In this document: in pieces, positions 39,414-46,021 of the stretch
Layout: each line of letters begins with the position of its first letter
Position numbering within the stretch: the first letter of the stretch is position 1
Origin: Anaerolineales bacterium
GTDB taxonomy: Bacteria > Chloroflexota > Anaerolineae > Anaerolineales > Villigracilaceae
NCBI GenBank assembly: GCA_016934715.1
Contig: JAFGSI010000028.1
Coordinates: 1 to 64,000, forward strand
DNA length: 64,000 bases
Reading direction: 5' to 3'
Translations under genes and position numbers: made by a program
The notes under the pieces: model-generated
Told to the model about the DNA's origin: nothing
The model's input: the letters and a program-made list of their open reading frames with translations, nothing else
The model's database searches: none

Positions 39414-39980
39414 CTATGGTTTCCGGAACCAGAACCAGGCGCTGGGGCGCTCGCCGATGTCGGTGCCGTCCTCGCGCCTGTTCAGGGTCAGGTGCAGGCG
39501 GGCGATTTCCAGGTCATCTGGGGTCAGGCCGGCGCCCTTCCCCTCCGCCGGTCGGACGAAGGCGTACAGCAGCCAGGTTCCACCGGAGGCCAGCAGGCGG
39601 TCGAGGTTGTGCAGGTAGGCCACTCGCTCAGTGATGTACAGCCCATGGAAGCAGCCAATGTCCAGGACCAGGTCGAAGGGACCATGAATCTTGTGCAGGC
39701 GGGTGACCGAATCGGTGTGGAAATCGACGTGCAGGCCGGCTCTGGCGGCCTTACGCCTGGCCATCCGGATCGCCCGGGCGGCGAAGTCCACCCCGCTGAC
39801 CGCCCAGCCGGCCCGGGCCAGGGCCAGGCTCGAGGTCCCGCTGCCGCAGCCCAGATCAAGGGCCCGTCCAGGTGGGGTGGCGGCGATGTAGGCCTCCACC
39901 TCAGGCGGGATAATCCCGCTCTCCCAGGGCGGATGGCGCAGGTACCACAGGTTGAAGAGCAGCTGTTTGATGAGACTCAT
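39414..39980 (-). CDS. Class I SAM-dependent methyltransferase
   Basis: A 188-residue enzyme. Motif I ALDLGCGSGTSSLALARAG near residue 40, then GVDFAARAI, LVLDIGCFHGL and LLASGGTWLLYAF. The N-terminal YLRHPPWESGIIPPEV resembles thiopurine/tellurite-resistance-type methyltransferases, which act on soft nucleophiles such as thiols, Se or Te. The ATG overlaps the stop of the candidate selenoprotein gene (ATGA), so the two are coupled. The longer upstream extension in another frame is discarded. Confidence 0.88.
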   Translation of the reverse strand: MSLIKQLLFNLWYLRHPPWESGIIPPEVEAYIAATPPGRALDLGCGSGTSSLALARAGWAVSGVDFAARAIRMARRKAARAGLHVDFHTDSVTRLHKIHGPFDLVLDIGCFHGLYITERVAYLHNLDRLLASGGTWLLYAFVRPAEGKGAGLTPDDLEIARLHLTLNRREDGTDIGERPSAWFWFRKP

Positions 39981-40459
39981 GGGGTGAGGGCGACCCGCAG
40001 CCGGTCCACATCCAGACCGCCCGCCTGGCGCCAGACTTCGACGCCCGAGGCATCGAAGAAAACGAAGGTCGGCGTGTACTCGAAGTTGTAGATCGGGGCC
40101 AGTTCGCGGCCAACGTCGGATTGGATGTTCAGGCGGATGACCAGCAGCCGGCCGGCGTACTCCTGTTCGAGCCCGTCGACGACGGGCTTCAGTGCCGTGC
40201 AGGCAATTCAGTAGGGAGATTGGAATTCGAGCAACACTGGCGTTCCCCGGCCGATCATATCCTGAATATCGGCAGCCCCGCCGGTCAGCATGCTGGCGCG
40301 CGGGCGCAGGAGGCTCCACGCCAGGCCCACACCGGCGAGCAGGACGAACAGGGCGATGAAATCAGACGGACGAGGTTTCTTGCGGAAGAGCAGCGCGGCC
40401 ACCAGGATCACCAGCAAGGTGGCTAGCCAGATGAAAGAGTACTGGTTGAAAATGCTCAT
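39977..40459 (-). CDS. Membrane-anchored thioredoxin-like protein with in-frame TGA in place of the first redox Cys (candidate selenoprotein)
   Basis: Read with TGA 40210-40208 as an amino acid, this is a 160-residue protein. The first 83 codons encode two hydrophobic helices (about 8-27 and 37-53), a linker and LLEFQSPY. The TGA follows, then IACTALKPVVDGLEQEY, and YTPTFVFFDASG with the cis-proline, a complete thioredoxin fold. Thioredoxins have CxxC here; this has (TGA)-Ile-Ala-Cys, the UxxC pattern of selenoproteins. The frame stays open for 76 codons beyond TGA and its true stop overlaps the next gene's ATG. A hairpin 20 bases after TGA fits a bacterial SECIS. A nonsense mutation is the alternative. 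Confidence 0.75.
40170..40188 (-). promoter_or_regulatory. Candidate bacterial SECIS hairpin
   Basis: Minus strand: AGCCCGTC-GTC-GACGGGCT, an 8-bp perfect stem with a GUC apical loop starting 28 bases after the in-frame UGA. Bacterial SECIS elements lie just 3' of the UGA inside the coding region and carry G, usually GU, at the start of a small loop that SelB reads. Confidence 0.55.
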
Positions 40460-40563: not shown

Positions 40564-42639
40564 ATGAAAGAGTATACCACCGAGTTAATCCGCAATGTCG
40601 CTCTCGTATCGCATGGTTCGGGTGGCAAGACCATGCTGGCCGAAGCGTTCCTGCACGTCAGCGGGGCGACGACCCGCCTGGGGAAGATCGAAGATGGCAC
40701 GACGGTTTCGGACTTCGAAGAAGAAGAGATCCGCCGCAAACTATCGCTCTCGACGACGATCGTCCCGGTCGAGTACAAGAATTACAAAATCAACATTCTG
40801 GATACTCCCGGATATACCGATTTCGTCGGGGAGGTCATCTCGGGCTTGCGGGTCGCTGACGGGGTGGTGGTGCTGGTCGATTCGGTCGCCGGGATGGAAG
40901 TCGGCACCGAGATCGCCTGGGATTACTGCGACACATTCAAGCTGCCGCGCTTCGTGGTCATCAACAAGATGGATCGCGACAACGCCGACTACAAAAAGGC
41001 CCTGGCCAGCGTCCAGGAATTTTCACCGACCCGCCTGATCCCGGTCCAATTACCGTGGGGTGAAAAGGCGGCCTTTGCGGGCGTGATCGATCTGATCACG
41101 ATGAAAGCCTACGCCGGGGATGGCAAGACTGCCGAAGAGATCCCGGCCGAATTTAAGGATGCCGCCGAAGAGGCCCAGATGGCCCTGATCGAGGCCGCGG
41201 CCGAGGGTGAGGATACCCTGCTTGAAAAGTATCTGGAGAGCGGTGCCCTGACCCCGGAGGAGTTGCTGCGCGGTCTGAGGGCCATTGTCCGCTCGGGCGC
41301 CTACATCCCGGTCTTTGTTGCCGCCGGGGCTCATGAGAAGGGAGTCACCCCGCTGCTGGAGGCGATCGTTGAACTGATGCCCTCGCCGGCCGACGTGGCA
41401 CCGGCGGTAGCCAAGGGCAAAGGTGGAGAGGAACAACTTCCTGCCACAGACAGCGGCCCGCTGGCGGTTTACGTTTGGAAAACGACCGCAGACCCCTTTG
41501 TTGGCAAGCTGACCTACTTCCGGGTCTATTCAGGGATCCTGCAGGGCGACACCCGCATCTGGAACAATACCAAGGAAACCGAGGAGCGCATGGCCTCGCT
41601 GGCAGTGATGCGTGGTAAGGAGGCCATCCCGCAGAAGGTCATGCACGCCGGCGACATTGGTACAGTGGCCAAGTTGGGCGCGACCAATACTGGCGATACC
41701 CTGTGCGACAAGGCCCATCCCCTGACCTTGCCGAAACCCGATTACCCGGCTCCACTATACCGGGTGGCGATTTTCCCCAAGACCCAGGCCGACGCGGCCA
41801 AGATCAGCTCCTCTTTGACCCGCCTGACCGAAGAGGATATGACCCTGCACTGGTTCCCCGAGCCGGCTACCAAGCAGACCGTCCTGGAGGGCATGGGTGA
41901 TCAGCACATCGATGTGGTCATCCGCCGGGCTCAAACCAAGCTGCAGGTCGGGCTGAACGTGGAGGAACCCAAGGTCCCCTTCCGCGAGGGGATCACCAGA
42001 AAAGGCGACGCCACCTACCGCCACAAGAAGCAAACCGGCGGCGCCGGACAGTTCGGCGAGGTCTGGCTGAGGATTGAACCCCTGCCGGACGAGGACTATG
42101 AGTTCACCGATGAACTCGTCGGGATGAACCTTTCAAAGTCTTACCTGCCAGCGATCGATAAGGGCATTCGGGCCACATTGGCCAATGGTGTCATCGCCGG
42201 GTACCCGATGAGCAACGTCAAGGTGATCGTCTACGACGGCAAGGAGCACCCCGTGGACTCCAAGCCGGTGGCCTTTGAAATCGCCGGCCGGGAAGCATTC
42301 AAGCTGGCAGTTCAGCAGGCCGGGCCGGTACTCTTCGAGCCGATCATGAATGCGCGGGTTACCGTTCAGGACGCCAACATGGGTGACATCATTAGCGATA
42401 TGAACACCCGCCGCGGTCGCGTCGTGGGTACTGAGTCCGACCGCGGTCGCACAGTGGTTGTTGCCCAGGTTCCTCTGGCTGAGATGCTGCGCTACACCAC
42501 TATCCTGCGTTCGATTACGGCCGGTCGGGGGGTCTTCTCGATGGAATTTGACCATTACGAGATGGTCCCGACCCACCTGGCCGAGCAGATCATTGCCGCC
42601 CGCCAGAAGGAGCTGGAGAAAGAGCGGGAAGAGGACTAG
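40564..42639 (+). CDS. Elongation factor G-like translational GTPase (EF-G paralogue)
   Basis: A 691-residue five-domain GTPase. G1 SHGSGGKT (16-23), switch I LSLSTTIVPV, G3 DTPGYTDF, G4 NKMD. Domain IV RKGDATYRHKKQTGGAGQFG and domain V GDIISDMNTRRGRV follow. The HGSGGKT P-loop (instead of AHIDAGKTT) and the EDGTTVSDFEEEE segment mark the FusA2/EF-G II-type branch rather than the main EF-G. Such paralogues may act in recycling, fidelity or stress. Own promoter, monocistronic. Confidence 0.9.
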   Translation: MKEYTTELIRNVALVSHGSGGKTMLAEAFLHVSGATTRLGKIEDGTTVSDFEEEEIRRKLSLSTTIVPVEYKNYKINILDTPGYTDFVGEVISGLRVADGVVVLVDSVAGMEVGTEIAWDYCDTFKLPRFVVINKMDRDNADYKKALASVQEFSPTRLIPVQLPWGEKAAFAGVIDLITMKAYAGDGKTAEEIPAEFKDAAEEAQMALIEAAAEGEDTLLEKYLESGALTPEELLRGLRAIVRSGAYIPVFVAAGAHEKGVTPLLEAIVELMPSPADVAPAVAKGKGGEEQLPATDSGPLAVYVWKTTADPFVGKLTYFRVYSGILQGDTRIWNNTKETEERMASLAVMRGKEAIPQKVMHAGDIGTVAKLGATNTGDTLCDKAHPLTLPKPDYPAPLYRVAIFPKTQADAAKISSSLTRLTEEDMTLHWFPEPATKQTVLEGMGDQHIDVVIRRAQTKLQVGLNVEEPKVPFREGITRKGDATYRHKKQTGGAGQFGEVWLRIEPLPDEDYEFTDELVGMNLSKSYLPAIDKGIRATLANGVIAGYPMSNVKVIVYDGKEHPVDSKPVAFEIAGREAFKLAVQQAGPVLFEPIMNARVTVQDANMGDIISDMNTRRGRVVGTESDRGRTVVVAQVPLAEMLRYTTILRSITAGRGVFSMEFDHYEMVPTHLAEQIIAARQKELEKEREED

Positions 42640-43424: not shown

Positions 43425-43919
43425 ATGGACGAACTCGAATCGATCGACCACACCGCCATCTTTGTCAGCCAGGTCAGCGTCGTAGTGCTGAACCTGCTGG
43501 CCTTCGTCCTCGACCAGCCCTGGTTGGCGGTGCTGGTCACCATCTTCATGCTGCTCGGGGCCCTTCTTGACACCCCCGGCTTCGGATGGGTCTATCGTCT
43601 GGCCCTGCGTCCGCTCGGGTTGGCCCGGCCGCATGTCCTGGCCGATTACCCCGAGCCACATCGCTTCTCCCAGGGCTTCGGAGCGACGGTCATGGTGGCA
43701 GGGAGCCTGGGCCTGTTCCTGCAGGCTTCACTCTTCGGCTGGACCCTGGTTGGGCTGGTGGCCGCCCTGGCAGCCCTCAATGCCTTTGGCGGTTTCTGCC
43801 TGGGCTGCTTCGTCTACTACTGGCTCGGGCGCCTGGGACTGCCGGGTTTCACCCGCCGGCCTCCGGCCGGTACCTTTCCTGGGCGTCGCCCGGGGGGAGC
43901 GCTTGCCGATGAACACTGA
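43425..43919 (+). CDS. DUF4395-family membrane protein
   Basis: A 164-residue membrane protein with about four helices. Features of DUF4395 are seen: an N-terminal ID.TA.FV.Q region, FSQGFGATVM, and AFGGFCLGCFVYYWL with a CxxC pair inside a membrane helix. DUF4395 proteins often sit next to thioredoxins and sulfur genes, as here, and may handle thiols or sulfur across the membrane. AGAGGT precedes the ATG. First gene of the operon with thioredoxin, cysK, cysE and moeB. Confidence 0.85.
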   Translation: MDELESIDHTAIFVSQVSVVVLNLLAFVLDQPWLAVLVTIFMLLGALLDTPGFGWVYRLALRPLGLARPHVLADYPEPHRFSQGFGATVMVAGSLGLFLQASLFGWTLVGLVAALAALNAFGGFCLGCFVYYWLGRLGLPGFTRRPPAGTFPGRRPGGALADEH

Positions 43920-44316
43920 GCTGTTTTCTCGGTTTTTAATCGCCCTGGTCGCCGCGGTAGTTATCTGGCTGGTCTGGTTCGTTCTCGGCCTCTGGACCCT
44001 GCGCCGGGCCAAAGCGGGCCTGCCCGAGGGTTATGTTCCCGGGCGGGCGGCGATCATCTATTTCTCCACGCCGACCTGCAGCTCCTGCCGGACGGTCCAG
44101 CGCCCGGCGATCGAGGCGTTGCGCGAGTGCCTGGGCGGGGCCCTGCAGGTGCTCGAGGTGGATGCCTCCGCCCGGCCTGATCTGGCCTCGACCTGGGGTG
44201 TGCTGAGCGTCCCGACCACTTTCATCATTGATGGCCGTGGGCGGGCGTGCCATGTCAACCACGGCGTGGCTCATTCCGAGAAATTGTTCGCCCAAATCAA
44301 GGAGAGTCTCCCATGA
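43909..44316 (+). CDS. Membrane-anchored thioredoxin-like protein
   Basis: A 135-residue protein with one N-terminal helix (about 6-28) and a thioredoxin fold with [12 protein letters not shown] (CxxC, about 54-57), [13 protein letters not shown] (cis-Pro). This copy has ordinary cysteines, unlike the TGA-containing one at 39,977. It overlaps the DUF4395 gene by 11 bases and its TGA overlaps the cysK ATG, so it is tied to cysteine synthesis; reducing a sulfur donor or a metabolite transporter is possible. Confidence 0.88.
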
Positions 44317-45248
44317 AAATCGCTTCCGATGTGACTGCATTGATCGGGAATACGCCTCTGGTGCGTCTCAATCGTCTCACCGCCGGGGTCAGGGCCGAGG
44401 TGGTTGCCAAGCTGGAATACTTTAACCCGGCTCACAGTGTCAAAGACCGGATCGGTTATGCCATGATCGCCGCCGCCGAGGAGGCCGGGGTGCTCAAGTT
44501 CGGGCAGGTCATCGTCGAGCCGACCAGTGGCAATACCGGCATTGCCCTGGCAATGGTCGCTGCCTCCAGGGGATATAAGTGCGTCCTGACCATGCCAGAG
44601 ACCATGTCGAAGGAACGCCGTATGCTGCTGAGGGCCTTTGGCGCTGAACTGCTCCTGACCCCCGGCCCAGACGGTATGAACGGGGCCATTCGGGCAGCCG
44701 AGGAACTGGTCGCCTCCGACCCCGAATTGTACTTCATGCCCCAGCAGTTCCAGAATCCGGCCAATCCTGAAGTCCACCGCCGCACGACTGCCGAGGAGAT
44801 CTGGCGCGATACCGACGGGAAGGTCGACATCCTGGTGGCCGGGATCGGCACCGGCGGGACGATCACGGGAATCGGGGAGGTGCTTAAGGAGCGCAAGGAA
44901 TCCCTGCAGGTGATCGCCGTCGAACCGGACGGCTCACCTGTACTCTCTGGTGGCCAGAAGGGCTCTCATAAGATCATGGGCATCGGGGCCGGCTTCGTTC
45001 CCGAGGTGCTCAACACATCCATCTACGATGAGATCGTGTGCGTCAAGGATGAAGATGCCATGGCCACGGCCCGACGCATGGCGAAGGAAGAGGGTCTGCT
45101 GGTTGGCATCTCCTCCGGCGCGGCGACCTGGGCCGCCATCCTGGTCGCGCGTCGGCCCGAGAACGCAGGCAAGCTGGTCGTCGTCATCATCCCGTCCTTC
45201 GGTGAGCGTTACCTGAGCACACCGCTCTACGCCGACCTATCTGACTAG
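44313..45248 (+). CDS. cysK: Cysteine synthase (O-acetylserine sulfhydrylase)
   Basis: A 311-residue PLP enzyme of fold type II. The PLP lysine is in [11 protein letters not shown] (Lys44). [11 protein letters not shown] binds substrate, and GTGGTITG binds the phosphate. It makes cysteine from O-acetylserine and sulfide, thiosulfate or a protein thiocarboxylate. The start overlaps the thioredoxin stop (ATGA); cysE follows after eight bases. Confidence 0.95.
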
Positions 45249-45256
45249 AGGTTCCT

Positions 45257-46021
45257 ATGGACACCAACCTGATCGCAACACCATCCCCGGCTGCCAAACG
45301 TCAGCGCAGCGGCGGCTTCCTGGCTTCCATCCGGCGGGACATTGACTCGGTCCTGGAACGTGATCCGGCTGCCCGGTCACGCCTGGAGGTCTTCCTGGTC
45401 TACTCTGGCCTGCACGCCGTCTGGATCCACCGCTGCACCCACTGGCTGTGGATGCACCGGGTCCGTTTCTTGGCTCGCTGGCTGGCGCAAGTCGCCCGCA
45501 GCCTGACCGGGGTTGAGATCCATCCCGGGGCACTGATCAACCCAGGCCTGTTCATCGATCATGGCATGGGCGTGGTCATCGGCGAGACATCCGAGATCGG
45601 CGCCGACGTGACCCTCTATCACGGTGTGACTCTGGGCGGTACCAGCCTGGAGAGAGGCAAGCGCCATCCGACCCTCGGCGAGCGGGTCGTTGTCGGGGCG
45701 GGGGCCAAGGTGTTGGGCGCGATCACCATCGGCGCCGACAGCCGCATCGGGGCGAATGCCGTGGTGGTCCGTTCGGTGCCACCCAACTCGGTGGTGGTCG
45801 GTGTGCCCGGTCAGATCGTCAAGCGCTCACAGCCGCACCGCCTGGGTGATGCTCCCGACCTGAACCACACCTCGCTGCCCGACGTAGTTGGGGTGACCCT
45901 CAAGCAGCTTCTCGAACGGGTCGACTCGCTGGAAACGCGCTTGAACGGGCATGCCGCTCGGGTGACGCATATCCACACCCCGGCCGGTGAGGTCTGGGAA
46001 GGCGAAGATTTCTCGATCTGA
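45257..46021 (+). CDS. cysE: Serine O-acetyltransferase
   Basis: A 254-residue left-handed beta-helix acetyltransferase. [30 protein letters not shown] and [10 protein letters not shown] are CysE signatures with the catalytic His and Asp. A C-terminal extension after the hexapeptide repeats (about residues 190-254) is polar and may reach CysK; feedback by cysteine is usual in the family. It makes O-acetylserine for the enzyme encoded just upstream. Confidence 0.95.

Follow-up and report, generated by a model that had tools for sequence, protein, structure and literature searches.

An open reading frame on the minus strand of a 64,000-nucleotide stretch of Anaerolineales DNA, which was analysed whole and is called the window below, raises the question of whether a TGA codon inside a thioredoxin gene is a stop or encodes selenocysteine (Sec). 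The sequence-only reading of this locus had described a thioredoxin frame interrupted by a single TGA, located exactly at the first Cys of the CxxC motif. Translation of positions 40459-39977 of the minus strand yields MSIFNQYSF...LLEFQSPY-U-IACTALKPVVDG...EYTPTFVFFDASG...ALTP-stop with one internal TGA, and a profile search of the window protein showed that the Pfam domain Thioredoxin (PF00085) spans that codon (residues 72-154, E 1.8e-9). Residue-by-residue alignment with three solved thioredoxins places residue 84 at the first Cys and Cys87 at the second Cys of their CGPC or CAPC motifs, which bears out the description. Other elements of that reading likewise held: the frame stays open for 76 codons past the TGA, Pro130 aligns with the thioredoxin cis-Pro and is invariant in 48 aligned members of the family, and the stop TGA at 39979-39977 overlaps the ATG of the next gene at 39980 within an ATGA. 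The coordinates of all features are collected in Table 1.

Table 1. Features of the locus in window coordinates, with the basis of each assignment.
Feature	Position	Strand	Basis or remark
Predicted selenoprotein gene, membrane-anchored thioredoxin	39977..40459	-	160 residues, predicted Sec at residue 84; stop included in range
In-frame TGA, predicted Sec codon (U84 of UIAC)	40208..40210	-	TGA in 63/84 and TGY in 21/84 orthologues
Cys87 codon	40201-40199	-	
cis-Pro130 codon	40072-40070	-	Aligns with the thioredoxin cis-Pro
First membrane helix, residues 8-25	40385..40438	-	AlphaFold model, hydropathy
Second membrane helix, residues 31-51	40307..40369	-	AlphaFold model, hydropathy; inter-helix loop positively charged
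Thioredoxin domain, residues 62-159	39983..40276	-	Pfam, AlphaFold model, PDB matches, alignment
Predicted bacterial SECIS hairpin	40170..40188	-	Arms 40188-40181 and 40177-40170; loop GUC 40180-40178
Class I SAM methyltransferase, next gene, ATGA overlap	39414..39980	-	Methyltransf_25 best; TPMT and TehB also above cut-off
Elongation factor G-like protein, divergent neighbour	40564..42639	+	Beside the gene in 69/84 loci

We examined the aligned codon in an orthologue set of 84 loci from 81 genomes, drawn from 200 related genomes that include the genome of the window, with matches down to E 7.9e-16; one match at a contig edge (G094) and four weaker TGA matches that belong to a lipoprotein family (L109-L112) were left out. 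The codon is TGA in 63 of these loci and TGC or TGT in the other 21, so that every locus followed carries either TGA or a Cys codon, which answers the question that the sequence-only reading had posed about homologues. The same TGA is found in 60 of the 81 separate genomes. That reading would have been undermined by other disabling changes in relatives, and no internal stop besides the one TGA was found in the 84 homologues. Across a quick tree built with the site masked, the TGA and Cys states require 9 or more changes, and starred branches force 5 of these; both of the other genomes of the same genus have Cys. In 10 close pairs of TGA genes, picked by hand, the codons 3' of the TGA evolve under purifying selection, with dN/dS (NG86) of about 0.07-0.22; these pairs share members (L085, L090, L093 and L029, L030, L034 recur) and are therefore not independent of one another. 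An eleventh close pair of TGA genes shows zero protein difference 3' of the TGA.

The family extends beyond the order. Among 400 genomes sampled across the phylum, the family of the window's genome included, 48 contain a match with an E value of 1e-20 or less (17 within that family and 31 outside the order), and 41 of the 52 matches contain one TGA. Thirteen loci outside the order were checked at the site: 8 have TGA, 3 have TGC, and 2 lack a match to the single-sequence query. A scan of named genomes, used for taxonomy, matched Cys-type patterns because it back-translates Cys; 26 of its 29 loci lie in sequences titled Chloroflexi, Anaerolineae, Anaerolineales or Anaerolinea, and the other three are weak matches, presumably to flavobacteria. 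Three contigs (G229:C20, G269:C25 and G483:C326), all from one further family of the phylum, each carry two adjacent copies of the membrane thioredoxin with one in-frame TGA per copy.

Decoding of UGA as Sec would depend on dedicated machinery, and the sequence-only reading had named selA, selB, selD and a tRNA-Sec as the genes to look for. All are present in the genome of the window (4.09 Mb in 88 contigs, 97.8% complete): SelB (357 bits) is encoded on the contig that also contains the window, SelA scores 527 bits, SelD scores 367 bits and itself contains one in-frame TGA (...SSCAGUASK...), and tRNA-Sec scores 70 bits, with ARAGORN calling a tRNA-SeC with anticodon tca. Among the 200 related genomes, SelA exceeds its cut-off in 169, SelB in 163, and tRNA-Sec, searched with stricter filters at E 1e-9, was found in 159; genomes unlisted in these searches were counted as being without the component (31, 37 and 41, respectively), and all three components are absent from 19 genomes. 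At least one component is present in 59 of 60 genomes with the TGA form and in 18 of 21 with the Cys form, which, taken alone, is a weak association (Fisher p 0.052, kinship ignored). The one TGA genome counted as lacking machinery, G121, has neither SelA nor SelB over the cut-off and no tRNA-Sec in the search, though its TGA gene (L088) has the hairpin; this could be due to missing contigs or to a foreign contig, or be a genuine exception. Most of the compared genomes are drafts.

We next consider the hairpin downstream of the TGA. The stem, AGCCCGTC-GTC-GACGGGCT, is a perfect palindrome in the window, and the 8-bp stem and GUC loop of the sequence-only reading stand; its distance of 20 bases does not, as 19 bases separate the TGA from the stem. 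With the T of the TGA as position 0, the stem comprises positions 22-29 and 33-40. The loop of 3 nt, the stem of 8 bp, the loop G and the start of the loop 27 nt after the TGA all fall within the bSECIS limits given in PMC13188914 (loop of 3-9 nt, stem of 4-16 bp, G as one of the first two loop bases, distance of 16-37 nt to the TGA). Bacterial SECIS elements commonly have a small apical loop that contains a guanosine (PMC1088965), and the first loop base is G in all 62 distinct TGA genes. A SECIS model (R1) run against the whole genome scores the predicted selenoprotein gene at 67 bits and gives 11 further weak matches of at most 15.8 bits, the second match being the TGA of the lipoprotein family and another the opposite strand of the window palindrome.

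Whole-segment folding energy did not separate TGA genes from Cys genes (mean -13.2 versus -13.9 kcal/mol over 54 nt), and pairing was therefore counted at fixed positions. TGA genes pair 436 of 496 stem cells (88%; 62 distinct genes), compared with a mean of 406.6 and a maximum of 415 in shuffles that swap codons solely between genes sharing the residue at that position and that do not keep relatedness; 0 of 2000 such protein-preserving shuffles reached the observed value. Cys genes, by comparison, pair 75 of 168 stem cells (45%; 21 genes) versus a shuffle mean of 75.2. In an independent covariation count, TGA genes showed two-sided changes in 34 cells versus 10.2 after shuffling (0 of 500) and a covariation score of 0.232 versus 0.123 (0 of 500), with slid versions nowhere near; two of the five measures gave no clear excess over shuffles in TGA genes (475/500 and 29/500), nor did the same count for the Cys genes. 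The clearest pair, 27/35, joins a first codon position (Val, Ile or Ala) to a third codon position (Asp or Asn); it is G-C in 45, A-U in 15 and G-U in 2 of the TGA genes and is unpaired in 9 of the 21 Cys genes. Pairing is less regular elsewhere in the stem, with pair 2 formed in 35 of the 62 TGA genes and pair 4 absent in 15. The hairpin thus fits the published limits and co-varies in TGA genes only. One Cys gene, L039 (G018), still folds a SECIS-like stem, as would be expected after a recent Sec-to-Cys change.

The predicted protein suggests where a Sec residue would act. An AlphaFold model built on a 48-row alignment (pLDDT 96) shows two helices followed by a thioredoxin fold, and the 50 PDB matches listed for the model are all thioredoxins, some as fusions or complexes. 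The fold, the CxxC-type motif and the proline of the cis-Pro loop together place the protein in the thioredoxin superfamily. By a simple hydropathy rule, 81 of 84 proteins contain a pair of hydrophobic segments, joined by a loop that is net positive in 72 of the 81; by the positive-inside rule, the thioredoxin domain is therefore predicted to lie outside the cytoplasm. We propose that SelB with Sec-tRNA(UCA), aided by the SECIS hairpin, would decode the UGA at 40210-40208, and that translation would continue until the TGA at 39979 is reached. The resulting protein would have a thioredoxin fold, a two-helix hairpin that anchors it in the membrane, and the active site Sec-Ile-Ala-Cys. Its selenolate would attack and Cys87 would resolve the mixed selenyl-sulfide, and the protein would therefore most likely serve as a reductant, with disulfides or oxidised thiols of exported proteins as its most likely substrates. 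Some membrane electron carrier would then re-reduce the Sec-thioredoxin.

Other explanations of the codon were weighed against this proposal. The TGA could be a real stop, with the locus either a pseudogene or a gene whose sole product is the membrane anchor. TGA terminates 18 of the 41 long non-overlapping open reading frames in the window, which indicates that it is an ordinary stop in this genome, but purifying selection past the codon, retention of the proline and the core, and the confinement of the orthologues to TGA or Cys at this one codon make a real stop highly improbable. Error in sequencing or assembly of a Cys codon, conceivable for a draft genome, would have to have produced the same TGA in dozens of separate genomes together with a co-varying hairpin, and we give it a negligible chance. 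If the TGA is translated, it could instead be read through or decoded as Trp, Gly or Cys. Bacterial codes with a sense TGA exist; against this alternative stand the frequent use of TGA as a terminator in the window, the fact that Cys is its only exchange partner among the orthologues, and the presence of a complete Sec system and a SECIS-like hairpin, and we judge it very unlikely.

The hairpin itself could be a by-product of coding for the motif KPVVDGLE or a DNA palindrome rather than a SECIS element. Most of the stem does encode conserved residues and the palindrome is perfect in the window, but protein-preserving shuffles fall short of the observed pairing and Cys genes as a class do not retain the stem. 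Nor is the palindrome conserved as DNA: the loop is GTG in 37, GTT in 17 and GTC in 8 of the 62 TGA genes, and this explanation is also very improbable. The sequence-only reading had proposed that the gene encodes Sec, and the machinery, the SECIS hairpin and the exchange of TGA with Cys in orthologues support that proposal. Taken together, the codon, the covariation of the hairpin, the machinery, the selection past the TGA and the predicted fold make it very probable that this is a selenoprotein gene in which UGA specifies Sec through a SECIS element; its product would be a membrane-held thioredoxin, predicted to face outward and most likely a reductase.

The genome encodes a second thioredoxin with a TGA (L003/L184), a lipoprotein-like protein with the motif FAFW-U-GTC located 12 kb past the end of the window (G000:C48:76171-76698, plus strand). 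This family occurs in 107 of the 200 genomes at E 1e-15 or better; 110 loci were taken, with a second match in G064 left out, and 109 are readable, as one locus in G104 stops short of the site. The site is TGA in 97, TGC or TGT in 10 and another codon in 2 (the second copy in G169, and G133). Genomes with the TGA form have machinery in 95 cases and lack it in none, versus 5 with and 6 without among non-TGA genomes (p 2.7e-7, kinship ignored). The six genomes without SelA, SelB and tRNA-Sec all have Cys and all belong to one genus (f9, g34), and one of the five machinery-bearing non-TGA genomes, G133, has neither TGA nor Cys as aligned. Its locus (L290, G133:C24:792-1310) has CTG at the aligned codon in an unlike motif, which may reflect either a frameshift or a misalignment. 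In G020, G047, G056 and G064, genes of the two families lie on the same strand, about 0.7-1.8 kb apart.

We also compared gene neighbourhoods in the window and 83 other loci, with flanks of 1.5-6 kb, some cut by contig ends. An elongation factor G-like gene is found in 69 of the 84 loci, a methyltransferase gene in 55 and a gene for a metalloenzyme-superfamily protein (PF01676) in 56; all three are present in 41 loci and none in 13. The window's own cluster has no PF01676 gene. The TPMT and TehB matches of the methyltransferase are suggestive of chalcogen chemistry and are weaker than its general Methyltransf_25 match. A tentative and rather doubtful possibility is that the two Sec-thioredoxins, membrane-anchored and UGTC lipoprotein, form an extracytoplasmic selenium thiol relay of Chloroflexota, and that the substrate of the clustered methyltransferase is a thiol, selenol or metalloid produced by the same pathway. 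Elsewhere in the window, 3 kb from the predicted selenoprotein gene, positions 43425-46021 of the plus strand encode a DUF4395 membrane protein together with a presumed membrane thioredoxin-like protein that carries CSSC, and after these come genes that resemble those for cysteine synthase and serine acetyltransferase.

Known selenoproteins provide a context for this family. The Table of a 2026 review (PMC13188914) places a Sec-thioredoxin (PF00085, UxxC) under experimentally verified families and also includes a thiol:disulfide interchange selenoprotein (PF13098, UxxC), and its main text does not contain Chloroflexi, Chloroflexota or Anaerolinea. The available text of PMC9312934 also lists a Sec-thioredoxin family and does not contain the word Chloroflexi. 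For Chloroflexi, PMC1794560 gives a total of 3 selenoproteins from 3 families, whose names were not found in the parts of that paper covered, the portion of PMC5736913 consulted concerns Sec formate dehydrogenases, and the abstract and outline of PMC12013277 contain none of the words searched. By title and the start of the abstract, no such thioredoxin appeared in literature on selenoproteins or selenocysteine in Chloroflexi, Chloroflexota or Anaerolineae. The UxxC kind of Sec-thioredoxin is therefore known, and its mechanism ordinary, whereas the membrane-anchored subfamily appears undescribed within the literature searched, which excluded most subscription papers and all supplements.

The window protein shares with bacterial Sec-thioredoxin the thioredoxin domain, the UxxC motif, a (here predicted) Sec in place of the attacking Cys and the existence of Cys homologues. 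Known bacterial Sec-thioredoxins are presumably soluble, whereas the window protein has a two-helix membrane anchor and probably faces outward, and it scores 37.4 bits against the thioredoxin equivalog TIGR01068, below the cut-off of 96.8. Thioredoxins of the TlpA, ResA, StoA and DsbE type are membrane-tethered; with these and the PF13098 selenoprotein, the window protein has in common a tethered thioredoxin fold and, as predicted, outward thiol chemistry. Its match to Thioredoxin_2 is barely above the cut-off (29.3 versus 27), and the DsbE, ResA, StoA and TlpA models weakly match 1 to 4 of the 48 members each. The DsbD model matches 21 of the 48 (best 6.9e-6), as does, weakly, that of the TsoB rhodanese/DsbD fusion-like selenoprotein (NF045694; best 1.4e-8). 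The window protein itself has no match to NF045694 at E up to 0.1 and no rhodanese domain in Pfam; among NCBIfam models it reaches no cut-off and matches no selenoprotein model at E up to 0.1.

With this finding, the list of selenoproteins would gain a Sec-thioredoxin that is anchored in the membrane and probably faces outward. Gene callers would take the active-site codon for a stop, and as a result this widespread family has probably been split in two or dropped in annotated genomes. The orthologues constitute a natural series of exchanges between Sec and Cys, accompanied by gains and losses of the SECIS hairpin, and the frequency of SelA among the related genomes suggests that selenium use is a common trait of the order Anaerolineales.
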